Source: Candidatus Poribacteria bacterium (GTDB lineage Bacteria > Poribacteria > WGA-4E > WGA-3G). From it: DNA of 64,000 bases. The notes under the pieces are model-generated. The model saw only the letters and a list, made by a program, of their open reading frames with translations. It did no database searches and had not been told where the DNA came from. Shown piece by piece: positions 54,378 through 63,829 of this stretch; position 1 is the first letter of the stretch, and every line of letters begins with the position of its first letter. The translations under genes and the position numbers were made by a program. The DNA lies in the NCBI GenBank assembly GCA_026710795.1, contig JAPOQK010000066.1, positions 1 through 64,000 on the forward strand. Reading direction: 5' to 3'.

Positions 54378-56207
54378 TTATCCTCCCGTAATTACAAAGA
54401 TTGCTTCACGAAATTGACCAAGTGGACGTGCGTTATAGGTAATGTCTACAGGAACGACTATTCGTCCTGATATAGAGACGTGTTGCGGAATCGGAATAGA
54501 AAAATCAATGAATCCATCTGTCCTCGGTGGAATTGTTGTCTCTTTCGGATCGATACCCACACCCCATGGTCCGGGAAAAATTGGTTGCACAGTTGCTGTC
54601 CGCGGTTCATGTGAATGGTTCGTTATCTCTACGTGCAATTGTGCTGTACCTCCCTGTGCAACTTCCTGTTCATAAGGATAGCAACGCACCCAATGTTCAT
54701 CCATGCCGTAGTTAGCATGATCCCAAGGAAAGAGTTCTGTATAGCACTTTTCTCGTTCAGCAAGAGTGTTTAACATAAAGTCAATCTCAGTATCAGTAAA
54801 ATCAAACGCTGGATCAACATGACAGTTAAAGATATGTGTAGGTTTGAGTTCTTGAATTAGACGTATGCATTTTTCGTAACCGACATCCGCACCGAGTAGA
54901 TTCCTATTTCCAGAGCAGTAATCGTCAATTCCTGCCATCGTGAAAGAGTCACCCGAAAAGAACATACGTACGCCATGTCCTTCCACAAGCAATCCACCGT
55001 GATAATAAGTCTGACCCGGAAAATGGTATGCAGTCATTGTGAACTCATTCCACTGCCAAGAATCACCATCACCTGTGGTACGATCCACCCGAGTAACAGA
55101 GGGCGAAATACAGGGAAGCCTGAAACCGATCGGATTTGTGATTACACGCGCAACAATATCATCGGTTATTGATTCACAAGGAAAAGTCTCCTGAAACTCA
55201 GGAATGGCATTTACGTGGTCGTCGTGATAGTGCGTTATCCAAAACTGTGTAACCTCAGATATTTCACCGTTTTCTTCCAACTGCTGAATCTGTTTGATTA
55301 TATTCGGTGAACCACAATCCATCACAAACGCTTCACCGTTTTCAGAAATGATAATCCATGTGGTGCCAAAGTGTCGTAGGAAATCAGGAGATGCTTTGCC
55401 TTCACGGATAGGCATGTGGTCAGCACGTCCTTCAAATTCAGTAAAAAGTTTCGGAAAATAGTGACGGAGTGCTGAGATGGACACATATTTATCATAACAC
55501 TCCTCCAACCGTTCAAAAAGCATGTCAATAGCCTTGTCAGGGTTAGGCATGATATTACCGTGTGTGGGAATTAGTGCAGTTGGCGATGTCTGACGGACTT
55601 TTTCAAGACTCTCCTTGAGTTCATCACGCGCTCCAAGAAAGCCGTGATAGTCGCTGGTCTGCTGTCCCTTCTGTAGGCTATAGAGTTCCCAAATCTTGCC
55701 TTCATCATAGATAAGATCCCCTGTAAAAGCAAAACGTTTATCATCAACATCAATGAGGTAGGTAACACTACCATCCGTATGTCCGGGTGTTTCAAGGACT
55801 GTCAGCAATGCTGAACCCCACTCAATCTGTTGACCGTCAGTATATGTATCTGCCACTCGGATAGATTTGGCAAGCATAAGATTGTGCGGATGGCAGTTGT
55901 AGAGGTGCCATCGGTACTGAGAATTGTTCCAAAAAGTGTCAACCTTTGCAAACCACGATTCCTCTTTTGCAGGCACCCCAATACGGACATTATCTCCAAT
56001 TGGACAATTGAGTATACTATCGCGATGGTGATGTGTAAAGAGAAGATTCTCCGCGTTAGTGATACCAAGTTCTACACATGTCATATTGAATGTAGGACCA
56101 CTTGGATCAATCAGTATCGCCTTACTATCATCAAGGAGAATACCAGTATTTACATGTCCATGGTGAACATACAAGTTTTCACTCAGTTGAGTATAGTCTA
56201 ATTTCAT
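54378..56207 (-). CDS. Tandem metallo-beta-lactamase-fold hydrolase
   Basis: 609 residues with two MBL-fold domains and a C-terminal beta-sandwich (about 520-609). Domain 1 (about 10-230) has THHHRDS, where the last His of HxHxDH is Ser, with ETPGHTDGS and FTGDLIYDEG. Domain 2 (about 275-500) has the complete THYHDDH. It may hydrolyse an ester, lactone or thioester. It is the first gene of the six-gene operon; VOC, PhyH, the Cys-cluster protein and two paralogues follow. The fusion with a CARDB-like tail is unusual. Confidence 0.78.
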   Translation of the reverse strand: MKLDYTQLSENLYVHHGHVNTGILLDDSKAILIDPSGPTFNMTCVELGITNAENLLFTHHHRDSILNCPIGDNVRIGVPAKEESWFAKVDTFWNNSQYRWHLYNCHPHNLMLAKSIRVADTYTDGQQIEWGSALLTVLETPGHTDGSVTYLIDVDDKRFAFTGDLIYDEGKIWELYSLQKGQQTSDYHGFLGARDELKESLEKVRQTSPTALIPTHGNIMPNPDKAIDMLFERLEECYDKYVSISALRHYFPKLFTEFEGRADHMPIREGKASPDFLRHFGTTWIIISENGEAFVMDCGSPNIIKQIQQLEENGEISEVTQFWITHYHDDHVNAIPEFQETFPCESITDDIVARVITNPIGFRLPCISPSVTRVDRTTGDGDSWQWNEFTMTAYHFPGQTYYHGGLLVEGHGVRMFFSGDSFTMAGIDDYCSGNRNLLGADVGYEKCIRLIQELKPTHIFNCHVDPAFDFTDTEIDFMLNTLAEREKCYTELFPWDHANYGMDEHWVRCYPYEQEVAQGGTAQLHVEITNHSHEPRTATVQPIFPGPWGVGIDPKETTIPPRTDGFIDFSIPIPQHVSISGRIVVPVDITYNARPLGQFREAIFVITGG

Positions 56208-56258: not shown

Positions 56259-57665
56259 TCAATCCATCTTTTCAATCACAGCCATCTGTGTTCTTCCACC
56301 GGGTGCACCTTCATCCACTCTCTCCCAACGTCCTTTTGTTGTCATGATGACATAGTCTTTCGTAGCAGCTTGATTACCACGAGGAACAAAAACTCCCGGT
56401 GTAGAAATATTATCCATTTTCCAGTTCAGATAAGAAAATGGTTCACCAGATTCCCACACCCATTGACTTTCATCAGGTTCATACTTCAATCCAATCCAAT
56501 ACCATATATCTTCATAAACAACATCAAGCCAAACTTGCTCATCTTCACTTGTAATTGAGACGAGATTGGCGCCTTCAGCTTTTGCTTTAGCTTCAGCATC
56601 TTTTCTCGTTCCATCACACTGAATTGCTTTGTATGCATGCCCATTTTCTGGATTAACTACCCATACGTTCGGAAAATTTATTTGTAGTGGTAAAGGGAAT
56701 TCGTTTAAAGATTCTCGCTGGATATTTTCTGTATTATTGTCCTTAGGTGGTGAATCCGTAAGTTCAGATGGATCAATATCAAGGGTAAAGACCAAATCCT
56801 CATATATTTGTCTGTCTCTTACAATAAAAAGATCTGAGAGAGATTTCTGTCCAAGATAGGCAAGTGTTAAGGAATAAATACCGTAATCATGTACATTGAG
56901 TTCAAAGTTACCATTAGTATCGGTCTGTAGTGTAGAGATGTAATTGGAACTATTTGTTCCATTCATATCAAGTTGAAATATATTAACTTTAGCAGTCTTA
57001 TCAACAAGCGGCTGTCCATTCTTGAAAACAACCTTACCTCGGATTTTCTGTGGACTTATGTCCCCAGACTTCATTATAATCTCTACGTTTTGTATGTTTG
57101 CACCGGGTTTTATGGCAAAAGTTACCGCACCAGTATCAGGTGAGAATGGAAATGGATGCGGGTAGAACAATGCTTTTCCAAACTTTATTGCAGCAATTTC
57201 TGGTAAAGATGGCTGCCTATGTGGAGCTTGTTCCTCCGGTGGATTTTCCTGTTCAAGCAGATTATCAGGTATCACTATTAATTGAACTGTTCCAGACACA
57301 ATACCTGTAAGAATGAAGTTTCCTTCTCCATCTTTTACCGATTTTATATATGGTGGCTGCTCCCTTAATGCTTGTTCATCGGGTAACGGTTTTTGTAAGT
57401 GTTCTCTAAATCCTGGTGGATCCTGACGTAAGAAAGGATACAGTGTTTTGTCATATAGTGGATCTAATCCTCCGTATCTGCGGAGTTTCATATAGATTAA
57501 TACCACAGTTGAATCTACAACCGGTTCTCCACTTTGGTCTACTACACGTCCGGTTATTATTGGTGGTTTTTCCTCAGCCCAACTTTTGGAAGGTGCAACA
57601 AGGATTGACAAACTAAATGATATAAGTATTGTAAAGACGACTTTTGAAATGTTTGATTGTATCAT
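56259..57665 (-). CDS. Exported protein with regulatory-like beta-sandwich and C-type-lectin-like domain, type A (copy 1)
   Basis: 468 residues: signal peptide (about 6-30), two carboxypeptidase-regulatory-like beta-sandwich modules (ITGRVVDQSGEPVVD; RGKVVFKNGQPLVD) and a C-terminal C-type-lectin-like domain with GHAYKAIQCDG, WYWIGLKYEPDE, WVWESGEPFSYLNW. I chose ATG 57665 (GGGAGA upstream); a TTG at 57695 is unlikely. It is the last of four related genes; its type is shared with the gene at 58934-60175. Surface adhesion or glycan binding is a guess from the fold. Confidence 0.75.
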   Translation of the reverse strand: MIQSNISKVVFTILISFSLSILVAPSKSWAEEKPPIITGRVVDQSGEPVVDSTVVLIYMKLRRYGGLDPLYDKTLYPFLRQDPPGFREHLQKPLPDEQALREQPPYIKSVKDGEGNFILTGIVSGTVQLIVIPDNLLEQENPPEEQAPHRQPSLPEIAAIKFGKALFYPHPFPFSPDTGAVTFAIKPGANIQNVEIIMKSGDISPQKIRGKVVFKNGQPLVDKTAKVNIFQLDMNGTNSSNYISTLQTDTNGNFELNVHDYGIYSLTLAYLGQKSLSDLFIVRDRQIYEDLVFTLDIDPSELTDSPPKDNNTENIQRESLNEFPLPLQINFPNVWVVNPENGHAYKAIQCDGTRKDAEAKAKAEGANLVSITSEDEQVWLDVVYEDIWYWIGLKYEPDESQWVWESGEPFSYLNWKMDNISTPGVFVPRGNQAATKDYVIMTTKGRWERVDEGAPGGRTQMAVIEKMD

Positions 57666-57703
57666 CGCGAATATCTCCCATTCGGATTCGTCCAAAGTCT
57701 TTT

Positions 57704-58930
57704 TTATTTTTTTACATCTGGAACAGTTATGTTTTCTTTATCCTTTTCAATGATAGCTTGTTTTACCGCTCGCGAAAATGGACTGTTTTGTCCGATTGTC
57801 ATCCATTTTTTGGATGAGAATTCCATTGCAATACCAGCCATTCCACTGTTGGTAGTTATGTTGTCAGGTTTCTGTCCTTTTCTCCAATTTGTATATGTAA
57901 GGGGTTGTCCACTATCCCACTGCCAAGGTGCATCATTGACAGGCACACGCAAACCAATCCAGAAAAATGCTCTATCTTTATACAGTCCCTGTAACCATTT
58001 CTGTTCTGCTTCATCATTGATTGCAACAAGGTATGCATTTTCACTTTCTGCTTTAGATTTTGCGTCTTTACAACTATAACATTGGATTTTCTTGTAGGCA
58101 TTACCATTTGCCGGATTAACTACCCATACTGACTCGCGTTTTTTAGTCTTTTTTGTGTTTTTCAAGATAAAAACAAGTTCATCATGCCGTTCCCCTTCTC
58201 CAAGGACTATTGTATCAGATTGTAATGTAAAACCCTTATATGTCATTGAGATTTTGTAATTTGCTGCTTCATCCTGAGAGTATGTAACAAAATACCCTTC
58301 GTTATCAGTTTCAAAGTTTCTGCCCAATGTTCCACTGCTGGTAGTGGTAATACCACCTTCACGGATTTGTGTGCTACGCGAGCTTATTGACAAGCTTATC
58401 TCTTCATTCATAAGTGGAGTGCCATCTTCATATAGCACACGTCCTCGAATTCGCATACGTGGTGTTTTAATGTTGACAATCACATTCTCAAGATGTTCCC
58501 CCGGTTCAATAGAAAACGTCAATTTACCGAACCATGTTGGCATTGCCCTACGAAATGCAATTGAATAAAATGTTAGGTCACCGATTTCAATCGATTGGAG
58601 TTCAAAATCTGATCCATGTTCTGGGAATAGGGTTAGTTGTGATGAGACTGGATCGATATTTTTTATAGTAAAATTTCCATCCATATCTGTCAATGTCCTT
58701 AACCATATTGGAAAAGGAGTCCGTTGTTTTAAACTTATATGAGGTCCAAACTTTACTGGTTTAATAGCAATCAATAGATCTGGAACTCCTTGACCGTTTT
58801 CATCTAATACGCGTCCAGAAATACTTGACAGAATATTCTCGGCATTGTTATCGCTTATGATAACAAAGGTTAGAAAGATTATTATGAAAATAACTATGAA
58901 ATTAGAGATGCGAATTTTAAATCGTGCCAT
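57704..58930 (-). CDS. Exported beta-sandwich plus C-type-lectin-like protein, type B (copy 1)
   Basis: 408 residues: signal peptide, then ISGRVLDENGQGVPDLL, a family-specific middle (FPEHGSDFELQSIEIGDLTF, AFRRAMPTWFGK, IEPGEHLENVIVNI), second sandwich (IRGRVLYEDGTPLMNEE) and a lectin-like domain (FFWIGLRVP, WQWDSGQPLTYTNW). A KPDN follows at the place of the Ca-site EPN/QPD motif. AAGGAGG precedes the ATG. It starts 3 nt after the type A gene upstream. Confidence 0.75.
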   Translation of the reverse strand: MARFKIRISNFIVIFIIIFLTFVIISDNNAENILSSISGRVLDENGQGVPDLLIAIKPVKFGPHISLKQRTPFPIWLRTLTDMDGNFTIKNIDPVSSQLTLFPEHGSDFELQSIEIGDLTFYSIAFRRAMPTWFGKLTFSIEPGEHLENVIVNIKTPRMRIRGRVLYEDGTPLMNEEISLSISSRSTQIREGGITTTSSGTLGRNFETDNEGYFVTYSQDEAANYKISMTYKGFTLQSDTIVLGEGERHDELVFILKNTKKTKKRESVWVVNPANGNAYKKIQCYSCKDAKSKAESENAYLVAINDEAEQKWLQGLYKDRAFFWIGLRVPVNDAPWQWDSGQPLTYTNWRKGQKPDNITTNSGMAGIAMEFSSKKWMTIGQNSPFSRAVKQAIIEKDKENITVPDVKK

Positions 58931-58933
58931 ATC

Positions 58934-60175
58934 TTACTTTACCTCCTTCTCTATTATAGCCATGCGGACTCTACCTATAAAGTGTGGACCATGTGAGTGT
59001 GGACTATCTGGATTTATTTTCTTCCATTTCCCTATCATCTGTTTCGATCCCGAAAAAGTCATGATTGCATAATCATGCATAATATCTTTATGACGTTCTT
59101 TTTCATCTTTCATTCCGAAGAACCTTAGAAATGCTGGCGGTTGGTTAAGTTCAAGATTATCCTCAGCCTCGAACTCTTCCCAGTTTGTGTATATGACAGG
59201 TTCTCCGTTCTCCCATAGCCATTTTCCTTCCTCAGCGATGTCCGTAATTCCAATCCAATAATTATCTGCACCAAATGCAGTTTCAAGCCAAACTTGTTCA
59301 TGCAAATTTGTTATTGTCACCAGATACGCATTTTCTTTTTCTGCTTGAATTTGTGCATCAGTCCTATCTTTACATATAATTCTCTTATATGCATGTCCAT
59401 TTAACGGATTAATTATCCACATTCCTGGTATATCAGATACATTCTGTCTTCGATTGCGTTCATTTTGTTCTGGTACTGGTGGAGGTTCGGAAAAGTCTTT
59501 TGGATTACCGTTCAGCCTTAAAACTTGGGAAACAACTTCTCCTTCAGAAAGAACGAGAAACGGGTCAACTTCTGCAGAAAGACCACGGTGATTTATTGAT
59601 AATGAATATACACCATTTTGATATATCACAACTTCAAAATTTCCTTGTCCATCTGTTTGAATCGAACGACTGAAGGAATTATTGCCTGGAAAATCTAATG
59701 TAATACAATCAACATCTATATCTAAGAAGTCATTTGCCAAGGGTTCACCATTTTTGAAAACAATTCTGCTTCTAATTCTCAATGGATTTTCGGTGATTAT
59801 TTCAGCGTTATTAATGTTCTTTCCGGGAGTAATAGTAAATGGGACAGCTCCATCCTGACCAAATCCAGTGTAGAAGAAAGACACATTTCCAATCCTGATA
59901 GACTGTATTCCAACATTCTGACCGGGTAGACTAAGTTTAACTTGTCCTGATGGTATATCTGTAAGAATGAACCGTCCTTCAGAATCTGTTTTCATACTTG
60001 ATGTTGGGAGTGTTACAGTTACACCAACAATTGGTTCCCCATCGCTATTGATAACGCGTCCGGAAAATGTTGACAAGTCATCTTGTGCAACACTATCATA
60101 GGTTGTAAGTTGCCCCGTTAAAATTGACATTGATGTTATAAACAGTAATAGCCCTAAAAAACTTATACGTGTCAT
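58934..60175 (-). CDS. Exported beta-sandwich plus C-type-lectin-like protein, type A (copy 2)
   Basis: 413 residues with signal peptide, sandwich modules FSGRVINSDGEPIVGVTV and IRSRIVFKNGEPLANDF, and a C-terminal lectin-like domain (YWIGITDIAEEGKWLWENG, YTNWEEFE). The middle part (NNAEIITENP, NGVYSLSINHRG) parallels the type A gene at 56259-57665. GGAGAATTAAG precedes the ATG. Confidence 0.75.
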   Translation of the reverse strand: MTRISFLGLLLFITSMSILTGQLTTYDSVAQDDLSTFSGRVINSDGEPIVGVTVTLPTSSMKTDSEGRFILTDIPSGQVKLSLPGQNVGIQSIRIGNVSFFYTGFGQDGAVPFTITPGKNINNAEIITENPLRIRSRIVFKNGEPLANDFLDIDVDCITLDFPGNNSFSRSIQTDGQGNFEVVIYQNGVYSLSINHRGLSAEVDPFLVLSEGEVVSQVLRLNGNPKDFSEPPPVPEQNERNRRQNVSDIPGMWIINPLNGHAYKRIICKDRTDAQIQAEKENAYLVTITNLHEQVWLETAFGADNYWIGITDIAEEGKWLWENGEPVIYTNWEEFEAEDNLELNQPPAFLRFFGMKDEKERHKDIMHDYAIMTFSGSKQMIGKWKKINPDSPHSHGPHFIGRVRMAIIEKEVK

Positions 60176-60235
60176 TTCTTAATTCTCCATTTAAGCAGAT
60201 AGAAATTCAATCGACAATAGGTGCTAATTATAGAT

Positions 60236-61492
60236 TTAGTATACGTCTTTTTCTAAAATCGCATGCTTAACAATCTGTTTAATCGGGTTCGTTTGGTCTA
60301 TTGTCATCCATTTTTTTGTTGAAAAAATTAGTGCGATTGGAATTTCTTTACTACTGTTTAACTGATTATCTGGTTTGCCGGATGGTCCCCAATTGGTATA
60401 TGTGAGAGGTTCACCACTATGCCATTTCCAAGCATTACCTTTTGTTGGGAGATGCAGTCCAATCCAATAGAATTTTCTTTCATTAAATGTTGACTCAATC
60501 CACTTCTGTTCCGCTTCGTCGTTTATTGCAACAAGATAAGCATTTTCTTCCTCTGCCTTCGCTTTCGCATCCTCCCAACTTTTACACGCAATTTGTTTAT
60601 ATGCATGGTTGTTCTCAGGATTCCCTATCCACATAGCTTGTCGTGCTCTCACTCTTTCAGTTTGATTTATGAGGTGTTTTTCAAGTCCTCTAAGTCTTAG
60701 AATTAGATTTTCTTTACTTTGTCCTTTTTTTACTTTAAACCATTTTGTTTTCGCTGTTATCCCTTCATATTTTACTACAACTGAACCTTCTGGATCATTA
60801 CCTATAGCATACGACACAAAATAACCTTCTGCATCAGTCGTGACATCTCTTGATGAAGATCCACCGCCACCTCCTGAACTAAAGAAAAAGAAATCTCTCT
60901 TTATTCTTCTACGCTTAATTGTCAGATAAATCTCCGTATTTCTAAGCGGTGTTCCATCTTCTAACAACACTTGACCACTAATGTGTCTGGGTTTCTTAAT
61001 TACACTAACTACCACGTTTTCAAGATGTTCACCTGGTGCGATTCCAATCTTTGGTTTACCAAACCATGTTGGTGCACTCCGACGAAACGCCGTTGAGAAA
61101 ATTGTTATGTCACCGAATTTCAACGAACTAATACCATAACCAGAACCGTGTTCTGGGTAGACAATTAACCTTGATGTAACTGGCATAATATCTGTTATTG
61201 TAAAATGTCCATCCTTATCGGTCACTGCTGTTTGCCATGAAGATACTGGAGCGAGAAGTCCCATCTCAAAACCTCTGCTGATTTTAACAGGTTTAACCGC
61301 AAGTTTTAGATCTGGAATAGGTTTACCGTCTTTATCTATTACACGTCCAGAAAGGCTCGATAAGTTATCTTGTGCGTGTATATTTGATGTAAAAGCAAGG
61401 ATGAATGATAAAGTGATTACCAAGATGGTAATCACAGATACTCTGCACTGTACCAAGTGTATCAAGAAGTTCATAGAGTGGATGTTTTTCAT
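60236..61492 (-). CDS. Exported beta-sandwich plus C-type-lectin-like protein, type B (copy 2)
   Basis: 418 residues, first gene of the lectin operon. LSGRVIDKDGKPIPDLKL, VYPEHGSGYGISSLKFGD, AFRRSAPTWFGK, IAPGEHLENVVVSV and the second sandwich SGQVLLEDGTPLRNTE align block by block with the type B gene at 57704-58930. The lectin-like domain shows FYWIGLHLP, WKWHSGEPLTYTNW and a KPDN. I chose ATG 61492 (GAGGTGGG upstream); its 5' end overlaps, in another frame, a remnant of an antitoxin-like gene. A Gly/Ser/Phe-rich insert (FFFFSSGGGGGSSS) lies mid-protein. Confidence 0.75.
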   Translation of the reverse strand: MKNIHSMNFLIHLVQCRVSVITILVITLSFILAFTSNIHAQDNLSSLSGRVIDKDGKPIPDLKLAVKPVKISRGFEMGLLAPVSSWQTAVTDKDGHFTITDIMPVTSRLIVYPEHGSGYGISSLKFGDITIFSTAFRRSAPTWFGKPKIGIAPGEHLENVVVSVIKKPRHISGQVLLEDGTPLRNTEIYLTIKRRRIKRDFFFFSSGGGGGSSSRDVTTDAEGYFVSYAIGNDPEGSVVVKYEGITAKTKWFKVKKGQSKENLILRLRGLEKHLINQTERVRARQAMWIGNPENNHAYKQIACKSWEDAKAKAEEENAYLVAINDEAEQKWIESTFNERKFYWIGLHLPTKGNAWKWHSGEPLTYTNWGPSGKPDNQLNSSKEIPIALIFSTKKWMTIDQTNPIKQIVKHAILEKDVY

Positions 61493-61580
61493 TTGTTCCC
61501 ACCTCATCAATCAATTTATTTAGAGCTGCTATTGCCTTATCATATTCCATCTCATTACGAATTGAAAAGAATGGTTGCAC
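61440..61580 (-). pseudogene. HigA-antitoxin-like N-terminal remnant
   Basis: In one minus-strand frame the sequence reads IRNEMEYDKAIAALNKLIDE then HPLYELLDTLGTV, which closely fits the N-terminus of HigA-type antitoxins (I-R-T-E-x-x-Y-x-A-A-L...). The match stops after about 47 residues; the helix-turn-helix domain is missing and no HigB toxin lies beside it. It overlaps the signal-peptide region of the lectin-like gene in a different frame. Confidence 0.45.
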
Positions 61581-61653: not shown

Positions 61654-63042
61654 CTACTCTTCAGCAAACTGCGGTCTACCAAGAGCATCTGTTCTGCCTT
61701 GACGTTTATAGTTTGGCAGGTTTCCATCTGCATCTGCTAAGAGACGTTCATGTGCAAGAGCAATCCTATCTGCCCCTTTATCCGAAATATCATTCTGACA
61801 AGTTGGATCCGCTTCAAGATCAAACAGACGCATACCACTATTGAGATCAACACTTGAAAAATACCAACTTTTCGCGTCTTTATACCACACAGAGTTAACA
61901 TAACGACAGGTGAGATATTCACGTGAAGTGAATCCGCTTTTACCTTCAACCAAGGGAAGCAGACTCTGTCCTTGAATTTCACCCGCAGGTTCAACTTCAC
62001 TTGCAGCCATGACGGTAGCAGGGACATCAAGCGTATATACAAATTCTTCACACGTTGTACCAGCACCAGCACCGGAAGGATGTCTGACGAGTAACGGTAT
62101 ATCCATCGTACCAGGATACATGAAGTTAGCAGGTTTTCCTGTGGCTTTATCAGGATTCTCGGCAAAATTAGTGCCATGGTCACTTAGGAACATTATTAAT
62201 GTGTTATCCTTTAATCCGAGACGATCAATCGTATCCACCAATCTACCAAACCAAGTATCAACAAGGGTTACCAAACCTGCGTAGTTTGCCCTAACACTTG
62301 GTAAACGGTTTTCGAGTTCCTCATCTTTGAGTGAACCGTAGGGTAAATTGAGACAGATCGGTTCACGATCTTCTCGACTACCGTAAAGATCATAGTAGTG
62401 GATAGGTGCTTCCCAAGTTTCATGAGGTGTGAATCCGTCCACATAAAGGTAAAAAGGTGTATTGTTGTGATTGTGTTCTACAAATTCAATTGCTGATCGG
62501 AACAACCTTGCGGTTGGCCAATTTTCTTCTTCACGTTCAGGTTGAACATTAACAATATGAGATTTGACACGGGGTGCATTACCACGATATCTGGCAACTT
62601 GTGAAGGATCAGCATGTGCCCCACCTCGATATCTATCCTCTGCTTGCCCTCGGACAAACTGCCACTGTTGGAATCCTCGTGTGAAATTCATTCCCGGCAC
62701 AAAATAGTGCGGTACATCCGCAAAAAAGCCTGTATGATACCCATTCCTGACAAGAGATTCAGCTATTGCCGGTTCATCTGATGACATGGGCTGCCAACCT
62801 GGTGTATATACATTATCCCACGGCACGGGATTATATGAACTTATAGGATAAACACGCCTGCCTGTATGTAAAGTCCGGCGCGTCGGAATTGTTGGCAAGA
62901 CTTCAGGATGGGCATTGGTAAATTTAACACCCTCTTCTGCAAATCGCGCTAAATTCGGTGTATGTACCCAGTCGTTTCCGTAAGGACTGAGAAATGCTGT
63001 TCGAAGCGTATCTGAAACAACAACGACAATGTTCCAACTCAT
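61654..63042 (-). CDS. Sulfatase-family (alkaline-phosphatase fold) hydrolase with Thr at the catalytic position
   Basis: 462 residues with sulfatase architecture: metal Asp11 (VVSDTLR), THTPNL-like VHTPNLARFAEEGV, TPFY-LY block, and FLSDHGTNFAEN for the second metal pair. The nucleophile signature, normally C/S-x-P-x-R, reads T51-I-P-T-R55 followed by LHTGR. The Cys/Ser needed for formylglycine is therefore absent. It may be a phosphodiesterase-like branch using Thr directly, as in nucleotide pyrophosphatases, or an inactive form. No anaerobic maturase gene is nearby and no signal peptide is seen. Confidence 0.8.
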   Translation of the reverse strand: MSWNIVVVVSDTLRTAFLSPYGNDWVHTPNLARFAEEGVKFTNAHPEVLPTIPTRRTLHTGRRVYPISSYNPVPWDNVYTPGWQPMSSDEPAIAESLVRNGYHTGFFADVPHYFVPGMNFTRGFQQWQFVRGQAEDRYRGGAHADPSQVARYRGNAPRVKSHIVNVQPEREEENWPTARLFRSAIEFVEHNHNNTPFYLYVDGFTPHETWEAPIHYYDLYGSREDREPICLNLPYGSLKDEELENRLPSVRANYAGLVTLVDTWFGRLVDTIDRLGLKDNTLIMFLSDHGTNFAENPDKATGKPANFMYPGTMDIPLLVRHPSGAGAGTTCEEFVYTLDVPATVMAASEVEPAGEIQGQSLLPLVEGKSGFTSREYLTCRYVNSVWYKDAKSWYFSSVDLNSGMRLFDLEADPTCQNDISDKGADRIALAHERLLADADGNLPNYKRQGRTDALGRPQFAEE

Positions 63043-63090: not shown

Positions 63091-63313
63091 TGTAGGTTGT
63101 GTTGACCGTAGTGAAACCCAGGGGTGTCAATTTAGTGTTGGAGGCTCTTGTAGGTCGGAGCGAGCTTGCGACCTCCGACATGTGAACCCCGATGAAATGA
63201 TACGTGTCGTAGGTCGCTTTACTCGTTCCGCCTACGTATATTTTTCAGACGCGCTGAAGGCATAGAATTGTCCTTAAATTGACACCAATGGGTTGACCAT
63301 AGTGAAACCCAAC
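63091..63313. repeat. MITE-like inverted-repeat element, copy 2
   Basis: Inner inverted repeats GTGTCAATTTA (63124-63134) and TAAATTGACAC (63275-63285) are exact complements. Direct arms GTTGACCGTAGTGAAACCCA (from 63101) and GTTGACCATAGTGAAACCCA (from 63292) flank them. The middle holds two further hairpins (GTCGGAG 63154-63160 with CTCCGAC 63173-63179; CGTAGG 63208-63213 with CCTACG 63231-63236). It fills the gap between the sulfatase-like and Dabb genes. Confidence 0.65.
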
Positions 63314-63343: not shown

Positions 63344-63643
63344 TTAAACGGTATAATCAAATACCAGAACATCTTCAACGAGTGGACGGATAGACTCACC
63401 AGCAACTTTTTGGTGAAAAGGATGTGGTAAATATGCATCTCGTGCGGCTTCATCAATAAATCGCACGATAAATCCGTAGCTATATCCTTGACTCTTACCT
63501 TCAGGACTGTTGTTAGTGCCAGCAGTAATTGATTCAATTCCCGGTATTTCATCTCCCATTGCATACAAAATATCAGGTAAAGCATCTATTTGTGCCGAGG
63601 TGACATCCGATTTCAACTTGAGTAACACAATATGTTCAACCAT
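63344..63643 (-). CDS. Dabb-family stress-responsive alpha/beta-barrel protein
   Basis: A 99-residue dimeric alpha/beta-barrel protein of the Dabb family: VEHIVLLKLKSDVT, a helix, IPGIESITAGTN, YSYGFIVRFID and HPFHQKVAGESIRPLVED. Family roles include small-molecule binding and some cyclases. I chose ATG 63643 because AGGAG lies 7 nt before it; an in-frame ATG two codons earlier would leave almost no spacing. Confidence 0.85.
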   Translation of the reverse strand: MVEHIVLLKLKSDVTSAQIDALPDILYAMGDEIPGIESITAGTNNSPEGKSQGYSYGFIVRFIDEAARDAYLPHPFHQKVAGESIRPLVEDVLVFDYTV

Positions 63644-63829
63644 ATACATACTCCTAATTTAAATGTGAGTTAAGATTGTTTGAGTGGAATAGTTCGAGGA
63701 TTTGGTATATAATGTTTAGTATTACACATCTCCTATAATTAAACAAGATAATTGTCTGAGACTAACAGTACTCACTATTGCCACAGAAAGCATATATTCC
63801 TATCTAAACCTAAGTTGCTACTATGTGTA

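Follow-up and report, generated by a model that had tools for sequence, protein, structure and literature searches.

A sulfatase relative of Poribacteria with a strictly kept threonine at the formylglycine position

We found that P0001, a protein encoded in the window (the whole stretch of 64,000 nucleotides of Candidatus Poribacteria DNA that was analyzed), is a sulfatase relative in which Thr is strictly kept at the formylglycine position and which, judging from its sequence, most likely cleaves phosphate esters by the Thr itself. P0001 is probably a soluble phosphodiesterase or phosphonate monoesterase that uses Thr as its nucleophile together with one divalent metal. Features of the window are listed in Table 1.

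Table 1. Features of the window discussed in the text
Feature	Positions	Strand	Remarks
Coding sequence of P0001, a Thr-type PF00884 protein	61654..63042	-	462 aa; ATG start
T51	62890..62892	-	Predicted nucleophile; codon ACA
R55	62878..62880	-	Retained from the C/S-x-P-x-R motif; codon CGC
D11-T12-L13-R14	63001..63012	-	D11, predicted first metal ligand; T12 replaces the second Asp/Gln; R14, fixed in the Thr type
D109-V-P-H112	62707..62718	-	Replaces GK-x-H of classical sulfatases
D202-G-F-T-P-H207-E208	62419..62439	-	H207 on the column of the conserved PH motif of sulfatases; acid at 202, not present in classical rows
D288-H289	62176..62181	-	Predicted metal ligands
K303	62134..62136	-	On the column of the second Lys conserved in sulfatases; low model confidence there
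Dabb-domain protein (PF07876)	63344..63649	-	Same-strand upstream neighbor in 49/52 loci
Metallo-beta-lactamase-fold protein	54378..56207	-	609 aa; 5.4 kb downstream of the P0001 gene

Conservation of threonine in P0001 and its relatives

P0001 matched the Pfam Sulfatase profile PF00884 with an E-value of 9e-35 and 120.9 bits (curated cut-off, 25), and the match covered positions 2–298 of the 301 in the profile; P0001 is thus a member of this domain family. The stretch at the formylglycine site reads P-E-V-L-P-T51-I-P-T-R-R-T-L-H-T-G, and T51 aligned on the column of the formylglycine Cys/Ser. The original prediction, made from the sequence of the window, of Thr in place of this Cys/Ser was therefore correct, with T51-I-P-T-R55 lying within 62870–62895. 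The predicted motif, T-I-P-T-R-R-x-x-x-H-T-G, was right in TIPTR but not in its spacing, as two residues rather than three separate R56 from H59. The accompanying statement that formylglycine cannot form from Thr agrees with the SulfAtlas paper, according to which there is no demonstrated case of formylglycine arising from Thr (PMC5066984; cited papers are drawn on here in excerpt). The same paper reports Thr at the nucleophile place in 30 of 59 PF00884 seed sequences and a TXNXE motif in eleven named seed sequences (PMC5066984). Thus, Thr in PF00884 members is already known from the SulfAtlas authors, and the group of P0001 is a variant. In excerpts of the literature searched, mostly from non-subscription journals, we found neither a Thr-x-Pro-x-Arg group with the sulfatase frame retained nor a Cys branch nested in such a group.

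A pattern-based scan of 84,980 species (one genome per species; not a census) yielded 70 loci. Fifty-two of these (L031–L082; 63–97% identity to P0001) were close homologues, of which 50 were titled Poribacteria, one Gemmatimonadaceae (L075) and one Caldilineaceae (L078); all 52 possessed Thr at position 51. The other 18 loci (L083–L100; best segments 25–33% identical) all possessed Cys in CxPAR. In a set of 51 full-length sequences, comprising the window and 50 Poribacteria loci, T51 was encoded by ACA in 27, ACG in 18, ACT in three and ACC in three. Because all 52 close homologues carry Thr and all four Thr codons are used in the 51 sequences, Thr51 is fixed and is neither a mutation nor a sequencing error. 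An artefact or private mutation, which Cys in the closest homologues would have indicated, was accordingly rejected, its probability being practically nil with Thr in 52 of 52 homologues on different contigs. Position 48, three residues before T51, is Cys in 44 of the 51 sequences and Val or Ile in the window and six others.

The gene is under purifying selection: the median dN/dS was 0.029 and the maximum 0.054 over 545 of the 1275 pairs of the 51 sequences, namely those with at least 15 differences and dS < 1.5. A profile match with E ≤1e-50 was detected in 56 of 59 genomes (the host genome, G000, and 58 relatives of the same class or nearer). An orthologue, counted as a match >760 bits, was present in 44 of the 59, G000 included; the sequences were read for part of them.

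The host genome (4.70 Mb, 114 contigs) contained 55 PF00884 matches, some of which are pieces of one gene, and the FGE-sulfatase domain PF03781 was matched at 20 places; Cys-type sulfatases and a possible modifying system thus coexist with P0001. Besides P0001, Thr was found at the nucleophile place in L113 (PTLQIRR), L114 (PTVPIRG), L103 (PTIPYRT), L115 (PTIPHRT), L107 (PTHPAHT) and L007 (PTTSAYA), and Cys was found in 42 other rows of G000. When stretches of relatives were picked by a good score with the Thr-type profile, 19 of 20 had Thr and one, L135, had Pro; L135 is cut at a contig end and reads P-P-L-P-A-R. Outside the phylum, Thr was found only in L075, L078, a Martelella plasmid protein (35.7% identity, PTVPARR) and the IMG/VR contig L152; the remaining eight plasmid matches fetched all had Cys. 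L152 is classed as viral, and its Thr-type gene (PTIPHRN) lies at the contig start, at 1–1455. Two ORFs further along this contig presumably resemble a phage prohead protease and a major capsid protein.

When 23 Thr-type sequences with identities as low as 26% were aligned, 31 columns were invariant, among them D11, R55, D109, H112, H207, E208, D262, D288, H289 and K303; the alignment was composed of Thr rows only, so that T51 is invariant by construction. The chance that seven sulfatase positions (D11, R55, H112, H207, D288, H289 and K303) all fall among 31 of 462 columns was 3e-9, a value that assumes independent columns and applies to positions named after the alignment was seen. A separate Thr lineage of G000, L007 and L107, was without R55, D-x-x-H and K303. 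In NCBIfam, arylsulfatase models scored best with both proteins; weak matches below the cut-offs included those to lipoteichoic acid synthase and phosphoethanolamine transferase for L007 and to phosphoethanolamine transferase and phosphopentomutase for L107.

The strong constraint on the aligned pocket argues for activity. A catalytically dead binding protein, in line with the missing modifiable Cys/Ser and with the Pro of L135, is a very unlikely reading, as the metal and catalytic positions stay the same across a large divergence and Thr is kept with all four codons.

The pocket compared with known enzymes

We tallied pocket residues in a 94-row alignment from which 15 rows (near-copies, duplicates and one short row) had been removed beforehand. 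The 33 Thr rows, 11 of which came from the window or from close orthologues of P0001, had largely been reached via a Thr-type profile; L119 and L120 of G000 were missed by the profile search and are therefore unclassified, and the PF00884 place C27:83059 is outside the counts. The tally included L090, L091, L093, L095 and L096, which are not in alignment A2. L099, with a stop codon inside its coordinates, and L100, which is cut and contains N, are outside A2 and the trees and inside the count of 18 Cys loci given above.

The position after the first Asp was T in 28 and S in four of 32 readable Thr rows. In the second Cys branch, to which the loci with CxPAR belong, it was T in 11 and S in five of 16 rows. 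In 42 classical Cys rows it was D in 20, Q in 17, E in four and H in one, and never T or S. The D-x-x-H motif was present in 33/33 Thr, 16/16 second-branch and 4/42 classical rows, GK/GR in 1/33, 0/16 and 39/42, and D or E at position 202 in 33/33, 16/16 and 0/42, respectively. Position 14 was R in 32/32 readable Thr rows and 19/42 classical rows, and N in 14/16 second-branch rows. H207 and D288 were kept in all tallied rows of the three classes; K303 was missing from a single row, of the second branch. H289 was present in 33/33 Thr rows and is a weak discriminator, as His is also found there in 32/42 classical rows. Since the second Cys branch possesses the same features, D-T/S, D-x-x-H and the acid at 202 are, by this alignment, not tied to Thr.

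P0001 therefore does not possess a sulfatase pocket with a single changed letter: there are further differences at position 12, in the GK-x-H motif and at position 202, and R14 is fixed. The claim that the metal-site motifs are complete stood for D11, D288 and H289 but failed for the second Asp, which is T12, and for GK-x-H, which is D109-V-P-H112. The survey of conserved residues proposed at the outset bore out D11, R55, D109, H112, H207, D288, H289 and K303, all invariant in the 23 Thr-type sequences. Thr as an alternative nucleophile is favored, but the nearest parallel by ligand set is with the one-metal LtaS/EptA/YejM enzymes, not with the two-metal nucleotide pyrophosphatases originally invoked.

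P0001 has in common with formylglycine sulfatases (SulfAtlas S1/PF00884) the fold, the overall sequence and the positions D11, R55, H112, H207, D288 and K303. It differs from them in its predicted Thr nucleophile, in T12 where they have Asp/Gln, in D-x-x-H where they have GK-x-H, in the additional acid at 202 and in the fixed R14; C/S-x-P-x-R, Asp/Gln after the first Asp and GK-x-H, which mark these sulfatases, are absent. With the phosphonate monoester hydrolases/phosphodiesterases RlPMH, BcPMH and ArPMH (SulfAtlas S1_0), P0001 shares the fold and His for the classical Asn ligand. Both are without the classical GK-x-H Lys, which is Tyr in these hydrolases; in contrast to T51 and T12 of P0001, they possess a Cys-derived formylglycine and Gln after the first Asp (PMC5488252).

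LtaS, EptA, MCR-1 and YejM are Thr enzymes that share this fold and have a metal next to the Thr (PMC7576196). The Mn of LtaS is surrounded by Thr300, Glu255, Asp475 and His476, and MCR-1 has Thr directly after its first Glu in addition to the Thr nucleophile (PMC7576196). By alignment, P0001 carries residues corresponding to those of the LtaS/EptA/MCR/YejM transferases and phosphatases, namely a predicted Thr nucleophile and an acid, an Asp and a His that would lie near the metal, and it resembles MCR-1 in the Thr after the first acid. Unlike these enzymes, P0001 keeps the sulfatase-type P-x-R context, and their models matched P0001 at E 0.08 or worse (NCBIfam LapC, MCR-12 and EptA, 0.083, 0.1 and 0.16, far below the cut-offs); P0001 is thus not a member of the LtaS/EptA/YejM sequence family. 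LtaS, EptA and MCR are membrane-anchored. The same holds for YejM (PMC7576196), in contrast to P0001, which is soluble as judged from its ORF and the strand start in its structural model. The first beta strand of the model comprises residues 4–11 and the ORF starts at this strand, leaving no room for a leader; the N-terminal membrane domain of the LtaS/EptA/YejM type is absent.

Proposed mechanism and substrates

We propose that unmodified Thr51 would be the nucleophile of a soluble enzyme of the alkaline phosphatase superfamily. A single divalent metal with D11, T51, D288 and H289 as predicted ligands would activate the Thr hydroxyl, which would attack the phosphorus (less likely the sulfur) of a diester or phosphonate monoester. 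The oxyanion may be held by R55, R14 and K303, and the leaving group may be protonated by H207. Water or an alcohol serving as acceptor would then release the phospho-Thr ester formed, and the gem-diol step of formylglycine enzymes would thus be unnecessary. Replacement of formylglycine by Ser in nine enzymes, of which five were arylsulfatases and four phosphonate monoester hydrolases, caused a mean loss of catalytic efficiency of approximately tenfold for phospho- and sulfoesters (PMC5488252), so that pockets of this kind can function with a hydroxyl as the nucleophile. EfAS, an Mn enzyme, is inactivated by D20N, D311N or H312A, and its C61S variant retains 20–35% of activity, which the authors ascribe to oxidation of Ser (PMC12421950).

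The structural model of P0001 (pLDDT 81.4, pTM 0.89; mean pLDDT 52–54 in residues 291–310 around K303) matched sulfatases and phosphonate monoester hydrolases with Foldseek E-values down to 8.2e-28. Among the best 50 fold matches listed, Z-scores were 30–35, with 35.3 to 6hhm and, on the side of the phosphonate monoester hydrolases/phosphodiesterases, 33.5 to 4uph and 33.0 to 2w8s. LtaS, EptA and nucleotide pyrophosphatases were not among the best 50 matches listed in either fold search, which excludes nothing. Because the nearest models and structures are sulfatases, family resemblance favors sulfatase-type substrates.

P0001 may alternatively be a sulfatase that dispenses with formylglycine, sulfate passing to Thr and then being hydrolyzed off. 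We consider this rather improbable: P0001 has lost the GK-x-H Lys and the second Asp/Gln found in classical sulfatases, and a sulfo-Thr ester would be expected to hydrolyze slowly. It is consistent, however, with the closest sequence and structure matches of P0001 and with the residual activity kept by Ser variants of formylglycine sulfatases (PMC5488252).

A two-metal enzyme like the nucleotide pyrophosphatases, in which D109, H112, D/E202 and H207 would form a second metal site beside D11/T51/D288/H289, is also unlikely. The candidate second site is a guess from D109, H112, D202 and H207; three of these, D109, H112 and H207, show no variation, and position 202 is acidic in every Thr row and in no classical row. 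P0001 matched PF01663 with 39.6 bits (cut-off, 23), but the match covers just 38 residues, 258–295. Further, two-metal relatives possess the spacing D-x3-H, which differs from D-x4-H of P0001, and the second Cys branch carries the same residues, so these need not go with Thr.

The neighborhood was rejected as a clue to the substrate of the proposed Thr phosphoesterase, as the Dabb and metallo-beta-lactamase-fold genes do not point to a phosphoester. A metallo-beta-lactamase-fold relative was found in the fetched flank of 39/52 loci (flanks differ in length), and neither gene was found near L075 or L078. Ten ORFs tested near these two loci comprised an aminotransferase, a GHL10 hydrolase, a DUF4249 protein and two enolase-superfamily proteins; the other five had no match in Pfam. 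The gap between the Dabb and Thr-type genes is 301 bases in the window and approximately 50 in the close relatives L031 and L032. This gap contains a stretch of approximately 210 bases (63098–63311) bounded by 23-base direct repeats that are 91% alike, with inverted arms of 20 bases (63115–63134 and 63275–63294, 90%), which resembles a small non-coding mobile element. Four tandem minus-strand genes at 56259–61510 look like paralogues, and the two tested (58934–60175 and 60236–61510) encode a carboxypeptidase-regulatory-like domain and a C-type lectin domain.

A second cysteine branch within the threonine group

CxPAR was found in all 26 second-branch loci, comprising L083–L100 and L153–L160; the latter are seven plasmid proteins from annotated records and one plasmid stretch without annotation. 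The hosts of L153–L160 are bacteria and haloarchaea, and the seven annotated plasmid records are named 'sulfatase'. The second branch resembles P0001 in D-T/S, D-x-x-H, E before F-x-P-H-E, D-H and K, and differs in CxPAR versus TxPxR and, in 14 of 16 rows, in N versus R at position 14. A single tblastn query (E 1e-5) detected a formylglycine-generating-enzyme-like gene in the fetched flank of 3/26 Cys-branch loci and 0/52 Thr orthologue loci, which suggests that the Cys of the second branch may be modified. The three loci, L089, L099 and L154, belong to Streptomyces, a Rhodobacteraceae MAG and Chelativorans.

Phylogeny was the check suggested with the original prediction, and in trees built without the active-site columns the Cys branch nested inside the Thr group. 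In the unrooted tree, the second Cys branch formed a single clade (99/94) inside this group. The set comprising this branch, L114, L115, L103 and L152 was supported at 98/96. At least two nucleophile changes are needed, and forcing all Thr rows together was rejected (p-AU 0.0117). A second tree set, for which the classical rows were exchanged, some long rows taken out and the columns filtered more strictly (12 rows out, nine others added), again required two changes (p-AU 0.00019); its classical rows formed one weakly supported clade (78/50). Both AU tests were run after the first tree had been seen, the classical rows all belonged to a single genome, and the trees did not include phosphonate monoester hydrolases. 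A quick 92-row tree, which excluded L135 and L149 (truncated N-terminus), also gave two changes, with support of 88 for the set holding the second Cys branch, L114, L103 and L115. L007/L107 switched sides between the two tree sets.

Rooting with E. coli LapC and OpgB gave no root: their end branches were 2.8 and 3.84 changes per column and the outgroups did not group together. LapC fell among Cys rows, and OpgB was gapped at the nucleophile column. With the Cys branch nested in the Thr group, the unrooted trees would indicate either that Cys was gained twice on a Thr background or that Cys changed to Thr and back to Cys.

We tentatively suggest, as a possibility short of an even chance, that one lineage with a single altered pocket (D-T/S, D-x-x-H, D/E-x-F-x-P-H-E) exchanged Thr and Cys/formylglycine, with R14/N14 changing alongside. 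Formylglycine would then have been recruited a second time, from a Thr-using ancestor and independently of classical sulfatases.

The one Thr-type protein found in an annotated record, that of the Martelella plasmid, bears the name 'sulfatase' though Thr cannot give the sulfatase cofactor. Sulfatase counts of genomes with such labels may thus include enzymes of different chemistry. If the exchange of Thr and Cys took place, it would provide a natural before-and-after pair for asking why enzymes adopt formylglycine. The pocket common to both branches would make the gain of formylglycine over a plain hydroxyl directly testable.
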